A DNA stretch of 64,000 nt from Desulfurivibrio alkaliphilus AHT 2 (GTDB lineage: Bacteria > Desulfobacterota > Desulfobulbia > Desulfobulbales > Desulfurivibrionaceae): assembly GCF_000092205.1 (NCBI RefSeq), contig NC_014216.1, positions 806,001 through 870,000 on the forward strand, in the 5' to 3' direction. The notes beneath the pieces were generated by a model. That model saw only the letters and a program-made list of their open reading frames with translations. It did not search any database and was not told where the DNA came from. The position numbers and the translations under genes were made by a program. This document shows, one piece after another, positions 57,485 to 63,380 of the stretch (positions are counted from its first letter, which is position 1; each line of letters opens with the position of its first letter).

Positions 57485-58129
57485 ATGACCAAACCGCGTG
57501 TTCCAGTAGCCCGGGAGGGTTACCCGTTTATCCTGCTGGCCGGTTTCGCTACCCTGGTGGTGGCGATTCTCGGCCTTTTTATTCCCACCATGGTGTTGCT
57601 GGGCCTGACCATTTTTGTGCTCTTCTTCTTTCGGGATCCGGAGAGGGTGGCGCCCCACGAGGATGATGTGCTGGTTGCACCGGCCGACGGCAAGGTGATT
57701 TTAGTGGAGCGGGTCTTTGATGAGCGTTTCGTCAAGGAGCACGTCTACAAGGTCAGCATCTTCATGAACGTCTTCAACGTGCATGTTAACCGCACCCCCT
57801 TTCCCGGCCGGGTGGAGCAGATCGTTTACACCCCCGGGGCCTTCTACTCCGCCGACAGTCAGCGCGGGGCCCTGAAGAACGAGTCTTGCGCGGTTATTCT
57901 CAACTCCACCCGGGGCCAGCGTATGGCCGTGGTGCAGGTGGCGGGCCTGATCGCCCGCCGCATCGTCTGCTGGGCCGAACCCGGCGATGAGCTTAAGCGG
58001 GGCCAGCGCTTCGGCCTGATCCGCTTCGGCTCCCGGGTTGATCTTTACCTGCCGCTCTCCACCCAGCTTGAAGTGGCCGTGGGCCGCCGGGTCAAAGCCG
58101 GCGAGACGGTTCTGGGCTACCTCCCTTAA
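57485..58129 (+). CDS. psd: Phosphatidylserine decarboxylase, short type
   Basis: The 214-residue proenzyme has two N-terminal membrane segments (about 15-50), APADGKVILVE, SIFMNVFNVHVNR and the FGSRVD self-cleavage site that makes the pyruvoyl group. It forms phosphatidylethanolamine at the inner membrane. A phosphatidylserine synthase gene, often its neighbour, is absent. It follows ilvN by 12 nt. Confidence 0.94.
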   Translation: MTKPRVPVAREGYPFILLAGFATLVVAILGLFIPTMVLLGLTIFVLFFFRDPERVAPHEDDVLVAPADGKVILVERVFDERFVKEHVYKVSIFMNVFNVHVNRTPFPGRVEQIVYTPGAFYSADSQRGALKNESCAVILNSTRGQRMAVVQVAGLIARRIVCWAEPGDELKRGQRFGLIRFGSRVDLYLPLSTQLEVAVGRRVKAGETVLGYLP

Positions 58130-58176
58130 ATCGCTAACTGATCACGGGAATTCCTGCCGTGACGATCTTCCAAGGA

Positions 58177-58204
58177 GTAAGCGGGCACGGGGTTGCCCGC
58201 TTAC
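58177..58204. terminator. Hairpin between psd and the actin-like gene
   Basis: GTAAGCGGGCA and TGCCCGCTTAC form a perfect 11-bp stem with a 6-nt loop between two converging genes. It could serve both as terminator although no long T run follows. Its outer seven bases, GTAAGCG/CGCTTAC, equal the ends of the palindromic elements. Confidence 0.65.
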
Positions 58205-58205
58205 C

Positions 58206-59291
58206 TTAAATCTCTTCCGACAGGGCCATCACCATGGCCCCTTTGGCGGTGGTGTTGAGGGTGTCTTCGGCGATTCTGACCTCGGAGATCTCCACCGGCA
58301 GGTTGACCTCGCTCAGTGCCTTTTCGAAATGCTCGCGGAAACCTCCCGCCAGTACAGTGCCGCCGGCTAAGGCGATGGGGATGGGCTTGGCGATTTTGGG
58401 AATTTTGTCCGACGAGTGCAAAACATCCTGGAGGCTGTGGAGCAGGCTGTTGATGAGATCGTCGTAGTAAATGTGCAGGGCTGTTTCCACACGGTTTTTG
58501 GGGCTTCTGTTGAGACTGACCCCGCCTTCCTTGATGGTCTTGATCTTGGTGGCCGGTTCTCCCACCGAAGCGCCGACCATGTAATCGATGTAGTCACCGC
58601 CTTTTTGGATGCTGTAGGTAATGACCGGCACCGAGAGGTAGGAGAGGCAGACATTGCACATGCCGCCGCCCATGCTGATGCCGATGCCCGTGAAGTTGTC
58701 TTCCGCCAGCTCGCTCATCACCGTGGCCAGGCCCTCGTTGATGGAAATTGGCCGGAAACCAAGAGAGGAAAGAAACATCTTGATCACCGACTCGTGATAG
58801 ATGGTCGAGTTGGGGCTGTCGATGGGCTGGCCGGGAATGCTGAAACAGATCACCTCGCCTTCATTCTTGGGCTTGTTGATCAAGGTGTTGATGATGGCCT
58901 GCAGGACGGTGATCCCTTCATCCTCCCGGGCGCTCAACAACCCTTTTTCCATGGTGCGGCGGGTGTTGGTGTTGAACATGTTGGCGAAATTCTCCGCCGA
59001 GTAACCGAGGATATAGAACTGGTCGTTCTTTTCAAAAAAATTGACCTCGTTTTCCACCAGAATTTTTTTGGTGAATTTGGAGTAGGGGATGGTGAAAAAG
59101 GCATTGAGCTGCTTGACGGTGTGAATGTTTTTGCCTTTGTTCTGAGCCATGACGATATGACTGGTGCCGATATCAAGACCCACCGGCCCGCTGGGGCGTT
59201 CCGCTTCTTCGCCGATCTCTTTTTCCCTTGAAATCACGGTTTTGTGTGATGCCTTGACGGCGGTGTCCACATTGCCCATTTCATTGGCCAT
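58206..59291 (-). CDS. Actin-like ATPase of unknown role
   Basis: The 361-residue protein of the actin/Hsp70/FtsA superfamily has phosphate 1 GPVGLDIGTSHIVMAQ (about 36-51), phosphate 2 GIGISMGGGMCNVCL, an adenosine-type motif PIALAGGTVLAGGFREHFEKAL, and closing region TTAKGAMVMALSEEI. It is shorter than MreB or FtsA relatives at the N-terminal helices and has no membrane-targeting amphipathic tail that I can see. It could polymerise or act as a chaperone or motor. AAGGAGGAG lies at ideal distance before ATG 59291. Confidence 0.78.
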   Translation of the reverse strand: MANEMGNVDTAVKASHKTVISREKEIGEEAERPSGPVGLDIGTSHIVMAQNKGKNIHTVKQLNAFFTIPYSKFTKKILVENEVNFFEKNDQFYILGYSAENFANMFNTNTRRTMEKGLLSAREDEGITVLQAIINTLINKPKNEGEVICFSIPGQPIDSPNSTIYHESVIKMFLSSLGFRPISINEGLATVMSELAEDNFTGIGISMGGGMCNVCLSYLSVPVITYSIQKGGDYIDYMVGASVGEPATKIKTIKEGGVSLNRSPKNRVETALHIYYDDLINSLLHSLQDVLHSSDKIPKIAKPIPIALAGGTVLAGGFREHFEKALSEVNLPVEISEVRIAEDTLNTTAKGAMVMALSEEI

Positions 59292-59354
59292 GGCTGCTCC
59301 TCCTTAGCTTACGGTTGCCCGATGGTATTCGAAAAAATCCCTGGCATTGTACTT

Positions 59355-59441: not shown

Positions 59442-62400
59442 ATGTCGCCCATATCATCGCCAGATCCCCGCGCTGTGAACACTACCCCCGAGCTTTCCTG
59501 CCCGGCGGAATTGCCCATTGCCGACTTCCGGGAGGAGATCATCGCGGCCATCATCAGCCACCCGGTGGTGATCATCGCCGGTGAGCCGGGCAGCGGCAAA
59601 ACCACCCAGATTCCCAAAATGTGCCTGGCCGCCGGCCGGGGGCGACAGCAAAAGATCGGCTGCACCCAGCCCCGGCGGATTGCCGCCATCTCCATGGCCG
59701 CCCGGCTGCGCGACGAGCTGGGGCCGGCCGGTGAGGTGCTGGTGGGCTACCGGATCCGCTTTTCCGATCATACCAGCCGGGCCACCCGGGTTAAATTCAT
59801 GACCGACGGCATCCTGCTGGCCGAAACCCAGCACGACCGCCAACTGGCCGATTACGACACCATCATAGTTGATGAAGCCCACGAACGCAGCCTGAATATT
59901 GATTTTTTGTTGGGTATTCTCAAGGAGTTGCTGAAGCGGCGGCCGGATCTTAAGGTAATCATCACCTCGGCCACCATCGATACCGAAAAATTTTCCCGCC
60001 ATTTCGATAAAGCCCCGGTAATTCAGGTGGCCGGCCGCACCCATCCGGTGGAGGTCCGCCACCAGCCGCCGGCGGAGACTGGGGGCGAGGCCGATGCCGA
60101 TGAACAGGGCTATACCGAGCGGGCTGCGGCGGCGGTGCTGGAGATTATCAACCACGAGCCGCCCGGCGATATCCTGGTCTTCATGCCCACCGAGCGGGAT
60201 ATCCGCGAAACCGCCGAACTGCTTGAAGGCGCTCTGGGGGCGCCGGCGGCCGCCGGCCGGGGCGGGAAGAATACCATTATGCCCCTGTATGGCCGGTTGT
60301 CGCCGAAGGAACAGCGGCGGATCTTTCAGCCGGTGAAGGGGCGCAAAATCGTCATTGCCACCAACGTGGCGGAAACCTCCATTACCGTGCCGGGGATCCG
60401 TTACGTGGTGGACACCGGGCTGGCCCGGGTGGCTGCCTACAACCCCCGGGCCCGCACTTACAAGTTACCGGTGGTGCCGGTGGCCCGTTCCGCTTGCGAT
60501 CAACGGGCCGGCCGCTGCGGCCGGGTGGCCCCGGGAGTCTGTATCCGTCTTTATGGCGAAGATGATTACCTCAACCGGCCGCTCTACACCCCGCCGGAGA
60601 TCGTCCGCTCCAACCTGGCCGAGGTGATCCTGCGCATGACCGCGCTGAAATTGGGAGATCCCGCCGCCTTTCCCTTTGTCGACCCGCCTTCCGCCCGGGC
60701 CATCAAAGATGGTTACCAGTTGCTGGCCGAACTGGGCGCCCTGGAAGGGCCGTCAGGTGGCCGCTTACAACTTTCCCGGCGGGGACGGCTGATGTCCCGC
60801 CTGCCTTTGGACCCCTGCATCTCCCGCATGATCCTGGAGGCCCGCGACCAAAACGCCCTGCGTGAGGTCTGCGTGATTGCCGCCGCCTTAAGCATCCAGG
60901 ACCCCCGGATACGGCCGGCAGACAAGGAAAAGGAAGCTGATCAGGTCCATCGCCGCTTCAGTGTGCCGGACTCCGATTTTCTCTTTTACCTCAAACTTTG
61001 GGACACCATGCAGAATGTGCTGGAACAGACCGGCAGCAAAGCCAGGTTGCGCAAGTTCTGCCAGAGCCACTTTTTGTCTTTTCAGCGCATCCGCGAGTGG
61101 CAGGATATTTATGGGCAGATCGGCCGGATCCTGGCCGGAGAAAAGGGTTTCAGCCTCAATCATGAGGCGGCCGCCGCCGATGCCGTACACAAGGCCCTGC
61201 TCAGCGGCAATCTGCGTAATATCGCCCAGAAGAAGGAAAAAAACATTTACCAGGGCGGTGGTGGCCGGGAAGTGGTGATCTTTCCCGGCTCCTCCCTTTA
61301 TTACCGCGGCGGTGAGGGCCAGGCAAAAGGGGCGAAACGGCAGGGGCGGGGGGCAAAAGAGGGCGGGCGGCCGGAAACCGGCCCCACGCCGGGCTGGCTC
61401 ATGGCCGCCGAACTGGTGGAGACCAGTCGCCTCTACGCCCGCACGGTGGCAGCCATCGACCCGGACTGGATTGAACCTCTGGCCCGCCCCTTGATGCGCT
61501 ACAGCTACAGCGATCCTCACTGGGAAAAACGCCGTGGCCAGGTGGTGGCCAAAGAAAAGGGCACCCTTTTCGGCCTGGTGGTGGTGGCCGGCCGCAAGGT
61601 GCCTTTTGCCCGGATCGATCCGGCTGAAGCCCGGCGCATTTTTATCCAGAGCGCCCTGGTAGAAGGTGAACTCAAGGGGAATTACCACTTTTTAGGGCAT
61701 AACCGGCAGTTGCTGGCAGACCTTAAAGACCTTGAGGAACGCAGTCGGCGGCGGGATTTGCTGGTGGCCGACGACCGGATTTTCCAGTTTTACGAGCAGC
61801 GCCTGCCGCCCGAGGTTTGTGATCAGGCAAGCTTGAACCGCCTGCTTAAAAAAAGGCGTGGCGACACTTTCCTGCAACTGCAACGGGAAGACCTGCTTTA
61901 CCGGGAGCCAAAGGCCGACCTCATGGAGCAGTTTCCCACCGCCATGCAGGTGGGGCAGATCAGCCTGCAACTCAGCTACCATTTTGAGCCCGGGGCGGAA
62001 GATGACGGCCTGAGCGTGCTGATTCCGGTGCAGCTGGCCGCCCACCTGCGGCCGGAGCGCTTCGAGTGGCTGGTACCGGGAATGCTGGAGGAAAAAATCT
62101 TTTTTCTGCTGAAAAATCTGCCGAAAAATTTACGCCGCCAACTGGTGCCCATCCCCCGTACCGCCGCGGAACTGGCGGAAAAGTTGCACGAAAAGTTGCA
62201 ATCGGTCAATATCTCCCTTTACCAGGCCCTGGGGCAGGAAATTTACCACCGGTACGGGCTGCGGATCGAGGCGGCGGCCTGGCCGATCAAAGCATTGCCC
62301 GATCATCTGCGCTGCCGCTTCTGTCTGGTGAACCAGGAGGACAAAATTCTCGCCTCCGGCCGCAATTTAAGCGCCCTGGCCAGCGGCGGCCCACCCGCAG

Positions 62401-63380
62401 CGCCACCGCCCGACAAGGTGGTGGCGGCATTGCGCCAACGCTGGCAGCGGCAGAACATAAGCGGCGCCGAACTGCCCGAGATTCCTCAGCGACTGCCGAT
62501 GACCGGCCCCGACGGGCAACTGATCGGCTATCTTTTTCCCGGTTTACAGGAGGATGATCGGGGCCGGGTAAACCTGCACCTGTTTACGGCGGAAAAACCG
62601 GCGCACCTGGCCACCTGCCAAGGGCTGCTGCGGCTCTTTTGCCGGGAGTTTACCGCCCGCCTGAAAGGTTTAAGAAAAGACCTGACCTTCCCCCGCCAGC
62701 ACTGGCGCTTGGCCCATGGGGTGGCCAGCCTGGAGGAGTTGAACCGGGCCATCGAGCAGTTTGTGCTGCGGGAGATTTTTGCCACCGGCAGCGGGGAGTT
62801 GATCGGGGCGGCGGAATTTCAGGCCCGGGTGGAAAAATTGCGGCGAGATGGCTTTTACCAGGAGGCCCGGCGTTTATATGAGTTGATTCTGCTGGTTTTG
62901 CAGGAGCGCTGGGAGACCCTTCAGGCCATTAATCGCCTGGTCCCGCCGGCTGCGGGAGGGCAAAGCAGGGTTGGCTCGGCGGCCGCCGCCGGTCTGCCCG
63001 CAGAGCTGATCGCGGAGTTGCAACAGGAGCTGGCGGAATTGCTGCCGCCGGATTTTTTGGAACACCATGACGCCGCCAGTCTGGCTCGCTTGCCTCGCTA
63101 TCTCAAGGCACTGCAGATCCGCACCCAACGGGCTTTAAGCGATCCCGCCAAGGACGCGGCCAAGGCCGCCCGCCTGGCCGCCTTTAAGCAACGGCTGCAA
63201 AAATACCCGGATGCAAGCGAGTTGTCGGCAGGCAAAAGATCGGTGCTGGCAGAGTATCGCCTGATGCTGGCGGAGTACAAGATAAGCCTTTTTGCCCAGG
63301 AGATCAAAACCATATTTCCTGTCTCACCGCAGCGCCTGGAGGAGAAATGGCGGGAGGTGGAAGGGGTGGTTCCGGTATAA
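59442..63380 (+). CDS. hrpA: DEAH-box ATP-dependent RNA helicase HrpA
   Basis: The 1312-residue protein has motif I AGEPGSGKTTQ, motif II DEAHERSLNIDFL, motif III TSATIDTEKFS, ATNVAETSITVPGIRYVVDTG and DQRAGRCGRVAPG, then helicase-associated and OB domains and the long DUF3418 C-terminus of HrpA. It remodels RNA and, in some bacteria, rescues stalled ribosomes. Its last codons (P-V-stop) lie in the flank of palindromic element copy C. A later start at 59475 (GTG) is possible. Confidence 0.93.
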   Translation: MSPISSPDPRAVNTTPELSCPAELPIADFREEIIAAIISHPVVIIAGEPGSGKTTQIPKMCLAAGRGRQQKIGCTQPRRIAAISMAARLRDELGPAGEVLVGYRIRFSDHTSRATRVKFMTDGILLAETQHDRQLADYDTIIVDEAHERSLNIDFLLGILKELLKRRPDLKVIITSATIDTEKFSRHFDKAPVIQVAGRTHPVEVRHQPPAETGGEADADEQGYTERAAAAVLEIINHEPPGDILVFMPTERDIRETAELLEGALGAPAAAGRGGKNTIMPLYGRLSPKEQRRIFQPVKGRKIVIATNVAETSITVPGIRYVVDTGLARVAAYNPRARTYKLPVVPVARSACDQRAGRCGRVAPGVCIRLYGEDDYLNRPLYTPPEIVRSNLAEVILRMTALKLGDPAAFPFVDPPSARAIKDGYQLLAELGALEGPSGGRLQLSRRGRLMSRLPLDPCISRMILEARDQNALREVCVIAAALSIQDPRIRPADKEKEADQVHRRFSVPDSDFLFYLKLWDTMQNVLEQTGSKARLRKFCQSHFLSFQRIREWQDIYGQIGRILAGEKGFSLNHEAAAADAVHKALLSGNLRNIAQKKEKNIYQGGGGREVVIFPGSSLYYRGGEGQAKGAKRQGRGAKEGGRPETGPTPGWLMAAELVETSRLYARTVAAIDPDWIEPLARPLMRYSYSDPHWEKRRGQVVAKEKGTLFGLVVVAGRKVPFARIDPAEARRIFIQSALVEGELKGNYHFLGHNRQLLADLKDLEERSRRRDLLVADDRIFQFYEQRLPPEVCDQASLNRLLKKRRGDTFLQLQREDLLYREPKADLMEQFPTAMQVGQISLQLSYHFEPGAEDDGLSVLIPVQLAAHLRPERFEWLVPGMLEEKIFFLLKNLPKNLRRQLVPIPRTAAELAEKLHEKLQSVNISLYQALGQEIYHRYGLRIEAAAWPIKALPDHLRCRFCLVNQEDKILASGRNLSALASGGPPAAPPPDKVVAALRQRWQRQNISGAELPEIPQRLPMTGPDGQLIGYLFPGLQEDDRGRVNLHLFTAEKPAHLATCQGLLRLFCREFTARLKGLRKDLTFPRQHWRLAHGVASLEELNRAIEQFVLREIFATGSGELIGAAEFQARVEKLRRDGFYQEARRLYELILLVLQERWETLQAINRLVPPAAGGQSRVGSAAAAGLPAELIAELQQELAELLPPDFLEHHDAASLARLPRYLKALQIRTQRALSDPAKDAAKAARLAAFKQRLQKYPDASELSAGKRSVLAEYRLMLAEYKISLFAQEIKTIFPVSPQRLEEKWREVEGVVPV

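Follow-up and report, generated by a model that had tools for sequence, protein, structure and literature searches.

A volactin-family actin of Desulfurivibrio alkaliphilus, paralogous to Mad28, that co-occurs with a class A penicillin-binding protein

We find that an actin-like gene in a 64,000-nucleotide stretch of the Desulfurivibrio alkaliphilus AHT 2 genome (NC_014216.1, positions 806,001 to 870,000; hereafter the window) encodes a non-magnetosomal paralogue of the magnetosome actin Mad28 within the volactin family, and gene content and neighbourhoods point to a strong genomic tie between this actin and peptidoglycan synthesis. The tie runs through a class A penicillin-binding protein, here called PBPd, which accompanied the actin in all 36 actin-bearing genomes among 197 of its order. 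An earlier, sequence-only reading of this DNA, which proposed a search for linked partners in other genomes, had called the gene an orphan, a label that does not fit: the protein is a member of Pfam Volactin, and relatives of it exist in bacteria, haloarchaea and phages.

The actin ORF runs from ATG to TAA, and its start is supported because close homologues align from the identical methionine. On the minus strand the sequence 5′ of the start reads AAGGAGGAGCAGCC-ATG and contains a strong ribosome site. The gene is monocistronic, with a convergent psd-like gene on one side and a divergent HrpA-like gene on the other (Table 1); the earlier reading had likewise seen one gene on its own behind a strong ribosome site. 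The stem-loop 3′ of the stop codon, where the surrounding 111 nucleotides fold with a z score of −4.0, is only a possible terminator; it has no U-run and is absent from the list produced by the terminator scan. Both signal scans performed at chance level, with 1 promoter-like sequence found versus 0.9 expected and 4 terminator-like sequences found versus 3.2 expected.

Table 1. Positions within the window of the actin gene, its candidate signals and its neighbours.
Feature	Positions	Strand	Basis
Volactin-family actin-like ATPase (Mad28-like paralogue), 361 aa	58206..59291	-	ORF, Pfam PF25216, AF2 model, MamK filament Z 28.0
Ribosome site AAGGAGG, 5′ of actin ATG	59299..59305	-	sequence
Stem-loop in the gap between the actin gene and its convergent psd-like neighbour	58177..58204	.	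fold, z −4.0 for 58120-58230
Actin N-terminal tail, residues 1-36	59184..59291	-	alignment and AF2 model
psd-like gene (phosphatidylserine decarboxylase-like, named by eye), convergent; outside the system	57485..58129	+	ORF
HrpA-like DEAH helicase gene (named by eye), divergent; target-clade synteny marker	59442..63380	+	ORF, blastp cluster

The protein carries the five actin motifs, phosphate-1 (GLDIGTSHIV), connect-1 (INEGLA), phosphate-2 (GISMGGGMCN), adenosine (LAGGTVLAGGF) and connect-2 (TAKGAMVMA), all of which align in 42 of 42 family rows, with single residues differing in some rows; its identification as an actin-superfamily ATPase by phosphate and adenosine motifs was thus sound. Ahead of the actin fold lies an N-terminal tail whose first 33 residues are modelled with pLDDT below 50. 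The sequence of this tail is kept within the clade that contains the AHT 2 protein (the target clade) and partly in magnetosome-linked paralogues. As a membrane helix it is unconvincing, with a 12-residue moment of 0.49 (residues 8–19) and a mean hydrophobicity of about 0.

The AHT 2 actin matches the Pfam Volactin profile (PF25216) with 288.4 bits against a cut-off of 35, over profile positions 3–321 of 321, and the E value of 1.1e-85 rules out chance; membership in the Volactin family is virtually certain. Volactins encoded on haloarchaeal plasmids (Haloarcula, Natrinema) are 38–39% identical to it over 90–96% of its length, and the Haloarcula homologue itself scores 447 bits with the same profile. 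In the tree, the 42 family rows, haloarchaeal members included, split from the host's own MreB and MamK-like rows with support of 100/99; groups inside the 42 rows mostly have no supported order. VolA of Haloferax volcanii is the described protein whose family profile our actin matches over its full length, and it is reported to form dynamic filaments and to affect the change from rod to disk (PMC10869688). In contrast to VolA, the AHT 2 protein is bacterial, has an N-terminal tail and is tied to a peptidoglycan enzyme; the volactin gene of Haloarcula differs further in being preceded by a gene for a DUF7139 protein.

An AlphaFold model built from 22 sequences (pLDDT 84.8, pTM 0.83) had as its best match among known structures the MamK filament, which it fitted with 2.9 Å over 296 residues, followed by BeeR (Z 26.9) and MreB (Z 25.5). 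The predicted fold resembles that of polymerising actins. MamK and MreB share with the AHT 2 protein the actin fold, the ATP motifs and structural Z scores of 25–28 to the model; they differ in that the AHT 2 protein has no whole-length sequence match to them and that the host's own MreB and MamK genes are distinct.

Several better-known identities were considered and set aside. Searches of Pfam and NCBIfam to E≤10 returned no MreB model, and the host's MreB is a separate gene elsewhere in the genome that scores 494.7 bits. The MamK model NF040964 gave 28.3 bits against a cut-off of 400. Salactin models matched the C-terminal part only, at 23.3 of 27.1 bits (PF25229) and 22.9 of 400 bits (NF053533). 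FtsA of the host has just one short patch in common with the AHT 2 actin, and against the host's MreB, FtsA and two MamK-like actins together similarity was confined to short patches. The judgement that the protein is not a typical MreB, FtsA or MamK therefore stands, as does the exclusion of ParM and DnaK, for which there was simply no model among the Pfam and NCBIfam hits. The best EutJ chain aligned at E 0.15 and the immediate neighbours are not eut genes; neither EutJ nor a benzoyl-CoA-reductase-type ATPase, the two non-filament families in which placement would, by the earlier reading, have refuted its proposal, was among the Pfam and NCBIfam hits. The NCBIfam profiles gave no match over any cut-off, and the PHROGs search gave no family. 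Bbp (big bacteria protein) is, like our actin, a further actin besides MreB in some Desulfobacterota; it is set apart by its description, since the cluster described for it, with a hypothetical protein and a Kelch protein, is not beside the AHT 2 gene.

In a draw of 394 genomes of the phylum, 20 exceeded the Pfam Volactin cut-off; four of these barely pass 35 bits and one more is a fragment, and discounting them leaves about 15 of 394 with full-length volactins. The volactin profile also weakly catches MamK: in three of the 20 genomes, G059, G070 and G159, which belong to the four that barely pass, its matches (37–39 bits) fall on genes scored as MamK. Within the order, 36 of 197 genomes that are 85% or more complete carry an actin over the Pfam cut-off, and the target clade is present in six families; another Desulfurivibrio sp. 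carries a copy 96% identical to the AHT 2 protein. The phylum of an 'Oligoflexia' bin had a volactin-family actin over the Pfam cut-off in 5 of 191 genomes. A scan of genome contigs returned 25 loci, most of them Desulfobacterota by title; two come from Oligoflexia bins and one from a Blastocatellia bin.

Comparison of the AHT 2 protein with magnetosome actins pointed to a relation with Mad28. According to Awal et al. 2023 (PMC10653835), two motifs tell Mad28 from MamK: phosphate-2 has S in place of D, and connect-1 reads xExx. Our protein has this signature, with S-x-G-x-G in GISMGGGMC and an E without a P in INEGLA. Because nearly all family rows have it, however, the signature marks the whole family and not Mad28 alone. 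In clade A2, the actins of G359, G407 and G421 share their contigs with MamK genes that pass the NCBIfam cut-off and with MamB/MamM-type CDF genes, the G359 contig also with an HtrA-type protease for which DegP/HtrA was the best model and MamE the second; none of the CDF and protease proteins on the three contigs reached a magnetosome equivalog cut-off. Analogously, an actin of branch X in G015 and G030 shares a contig with MamM/MamB-type CDF genes. Because of the MamK and magnetosome-type genes on their contigs together with the motif signature, we identify these A2 and X relatives as Mad28, a match made through the published signature and not through a named sequence.

The AHT 2 actin is 58–64% identical to the three A2 actins with MamK on the contig and has a similar N-terminal tail; it is 60% identical to the A2 actin of G436 and 54% to that of G214, both of which neighbour a class A penicillin-binding protein gene instead. 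The target clade (97/94), A2 and X form one joint clade with support of 97/99, built without a named Mad28 sequence and including the G436 and G214 actins; the three have no supported branching order among them. G015 and G030 each encode an X actin alongside one of the target clade, which makes the target clade a paralogue in its own right. It differs from Mad28 in being its own subclade, in its partner PBPd and in the absence of a convincing amphipathic helix. It differs also in its setting: the gene lies outside any magnetosome cluster, between its psd-like and HrpA-like neighbours, and no magnetosome CDF (MamM-type) match at E≤1e-40 was found in the host genome or in eight further target-clade genomes (G002, G009, G014, G028, G031, G033, G039 and G041). 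The NF033615 search is a poor discriminator between magnetosome and ordinary CDF proteins: its 350-bit cut-off was reached in no genome, 5 of 14 control genomes match below that cut-off, and G099, G214, G436 and G767–G769 match on contigs other than their volactin's, G767 having no volactin over the cut-off. Elsewhere in the host genome, at about 2.983–2.986 Mb (L118 6884-9734), two MamK-family actin genes stand in tandem (460 and 376 of 400 bits), and such tandem pairs also occur in the target-clade genomes G002, G028 and G041.

Genes in target-clade loci are usually arranged as HrpA-like helicase, actin, pentapeptide-repeat protein (encoded on the opposite strand) and PBPd, a divergent class A penicillin-binding protein. 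The helicases of 24 loci, counting the window, fall into one blastp cluster, and PBPd was seen within the stretch at 16 target-clade loci. Pfam finds Transglycosylase and Transpeptidase domains in both the PBPd of locus L062 and that of the host. Calling PBPd at E≤1e-60 and the actin by the Pfam cut-off in the same 197 genomes, we found PBPd in 37, the 36 genomes with the actin plus G767, which has PBPd alone. Actin-bearing and PBPd-bearing genera were identical (17 of 64). Fisher tests gave p values of 1e-38 for genomes and 7e-16 for genera, which ignore shared ancestry and are descriptive only, and the co-occurrence may reflect few gains and losses. In the phylum draw, PBPd was present in 7 of the 394 genomes, all of them with a target-clade actin. 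The genes are also absent together: G004, of the same genus and 100% complete, has neither, and G043 and G771 (genus g22, family f5) have no PBPd and only sub-cut-off matches for the actin. Joint absences in G013, G016, G019 and G762 count less because these are draft assemblies of 70 to 500 contigs.

Because the opposite-strand pentapeptide gene usually separates the actin and PBPd genes, they do not form a simple operon. In the host, some 393 kb separate the actin from PBPd and the pentapeptide gene, which lie near 1.255–1.261 Mb. At a further six loci (L061, L064, L100, L180, L181 and L184) the 5–8 kb downstream of the actin contain no PBPd or pentapeptide gene, and the corresponding genomes carry PBPd elsewhere. 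The pair is therefore kept without adjacency in seven loci, the window among them. As a separate observation, the gene beside PBPd in the host (L117) encodes a large pentapeptide-repeat protein and has stayed there although the actin gene is elsewhere.

PBPd has the transglycosylase ED motif and the SxxK, SxN and KTG motifs in 26 of 26 aligned rows (24 distinct). Its likely membrane helix is only moderately hydrophobic (1.3–1.6 on a simple scale), and before it residues 31–105 show 61–73% majority-residue conservation, versus 85% in the transglycosylase domain. Conservation of this kind could be expected if a cytoplasmic partner binds there.

Wall genes recur beside more distant relatives. At 12 of 14 distant loci (L071–L083 and L085) a gene like that for the L077 Amidase_2 protein is adjacent to the volactin gene or one ORF away, the two exceptions being the Oligoflexia loci; G437 brings the total to 13 loci, which by eye represent about eight lineages because several are near-identical. 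Pfam confirmed Amidase_2 in 3 of 3 proteins tested and an AMIN-domain gene after the Amidase_2-type gene in 2 of 2. A class A penicillin-binding protein gene is adjacent to the actin in G436 and one small gene away in G214. Elsewhere in the family the neighbours are ParA/MinD-like ATPases, coiled-coil or HEAT proteins, or a further actin-like gene. Wall linkage in the family is thus common and not universal, and wall work is not general to it, because other members adjoin magnetosome, ParA-like ATPase or phage tail-like genes.

Two minor features of these neighbourhoods were also noted. The Amidase_2-type protein beside the volactin has an apparent membrane segment (L071–L074, L076–L080, L082, L083, L085 and L090), and the loci pairing the two come mostly from Desulfobacterales-type bins, with one Blastocatellia bin. 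Elsewhere the volactin gene clusters with genes for small conserved proteins (L075 752-7002, L081, L097 and L176); L075, L081 and L176 hold another actin-like gene, with an MreB-like_C match in both of those tested, above cut-off in L075 and just under it in L176, and in L097 and L176 a ParA/MinD-like ATPase gene follows the volactin gene.

The best explanation, about which we are evenly divided, is that a filament-forming ATPase positions a dedicated peptidoglycan synthase in a curved rod, the cells of strain AHT2 being reported as non-motile curved rods (PMC5016858). The link to PBPd could instead be hitch-hiking, in which vertical descent and an old gene order hold the two together while the actin's job lies elsewhere. 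We consider this rather unlikely: the four-gene arrangement is indeed frequent and the Fisher test takes no account of ancestry, but both genes are kept at the seven loci where the arrangement is broken, both are missing in G004, G043 and G771 (with the sub-cut-off actin matches of the latter two), and outside the order relatives neighbour different wall enzymes. A role in segregating DNA, as for salactin or ParM, would fit the ParA/MinD-like ATPases beside other volactin groups and the weak, sub-cut-off Salactin-profile match of 23.3 bits; the AHT 2 gene, however, is chromosomal and monocistronic, has psd-like and HrpA-like flanks with no ParA-like neighbour, and retains its HrpA-like neighbour at many loci of the target clade, which makes this reading very improbable.

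Two further alternatives start from magnetosomes. The gene might be a leftover Mad28, its magnetotactic ancestor having lost the magnetosome cluster so that the actin and two MamK proteins remain or position other inclusions. The 58–64% identity to actins on magnetosome-gene contigs and the tandem MamK-family genes kept by the host, as by G002, G028 and G041, agree with such a history. Against it, the target clade has its own synteny (the HrpA-like gene and PBPd), the eight further target-clade genomes likewise give no MamM match at E≤1e-40, and the target clade is not the Mad28 of G015 and G030, because a separate actin sits on their CDF contig; we regard the account as improbable. The actin might otherwise position non-magnetic cargo, such as storage granules or polar machinery, or set polarity, much as Mad28 and MamK do with magnetosomes. 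Its place in one clade with Mad28-type actins and the two MamK-family actins in the same genome would suit that task, yet no linked cargo gene was seen and the linked genes encode a wall synthase and a pentapeptide-repeat protein, so that this too seems improbable. The earlier suggestion of organelle positioning was a good guess for the related Mad28 and fares less well in a host that has no magnetosome CDF match at E≤1e-40; the cytoskeletal role suggested with it probably holds.

Returning to the positioning of a wall synthase, descent from the volactin and Mad28 line is the reason to expect that the actin polymerises, perhaps near a membrane. Mad28 of RS-1 is reported to form filaments, to bind liposomes and to prefer concave membrane (PMC12713370), and Mad28 to hold magnetosome chains at positive curvature (PMC12748827). 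Filament formation by the AHT 2 protein is, in our view, likely; that it works with PBPd or the cell wall, as expected from their co-occurrence, is an even call; and control of curvature specifically, by analogy, is doubtful. We infer filaments, membrane proximity, contact with PBPd and an effect on the wall as parts of one sequence of events. The actin would bind ATP and polymerise in the cytoplasm, close to the membrane's inner face, where its filaments would recruit or confine PBPd. PBPd combines a conserved N-terminal segment predicted to be cytoplasmic, a single likely membrane helix and both transglycosylase and transpeptidase domains, so that the pair would direct the site at which peptidoglycan is made. 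Most likely it would thereby control cell shape or curvature locally, with the ordinary MreB system working alongside.

These comparisons connect volactin, a shape actin of archaea, with Mad28 of magnetosomes, two proteins that had been described in different papers; a literature search, with preprints and most subscription journals outside it, found no paper naming both. PBPd offers a testable partner for a third branch, the target clade, for which we found no description. Tentatively, and with less than even confidence, we propose that Desulfobulbales have a second, MreB-independent wall actin, a volactin/Mad28-type filament with its own class A synthase, and that Mad28, haloarchaeal volactin and the phage actins are one family that changes partners among wall enzymes, magnetosomes and phage tails. 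If this is true, MreB is not the only actin with which bacteria direct wall growth, and experiments can address whether the Mad28 line originally served geometry or the wall before it took on magnetosomes.

Volactin relatives are also abundant in viral contigs. They occur in a 485-kb and a 595-kb phage record, and an alignment scan of IMG/VR found at least 598 stretches encoding a relative (598 of 600 candidates among the matches listed), whereas a viral scan with the AHT 2 protein alone as query found none. Viral volactin loci include L088 6001-6999, L089 6001-6996 and L216–L295; from the matches listed we kept 80 loci, and the contigs reach 485 kb. All six viral proteins tested matched Pfam Volactin, with 228–261 bits, and none of the six had a PHROG family. 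Most of the 45 top-of-list loci that we inspected share a recurring gene module, which often ends in a gene for a long protein that looks tail-sheath-like by eye.
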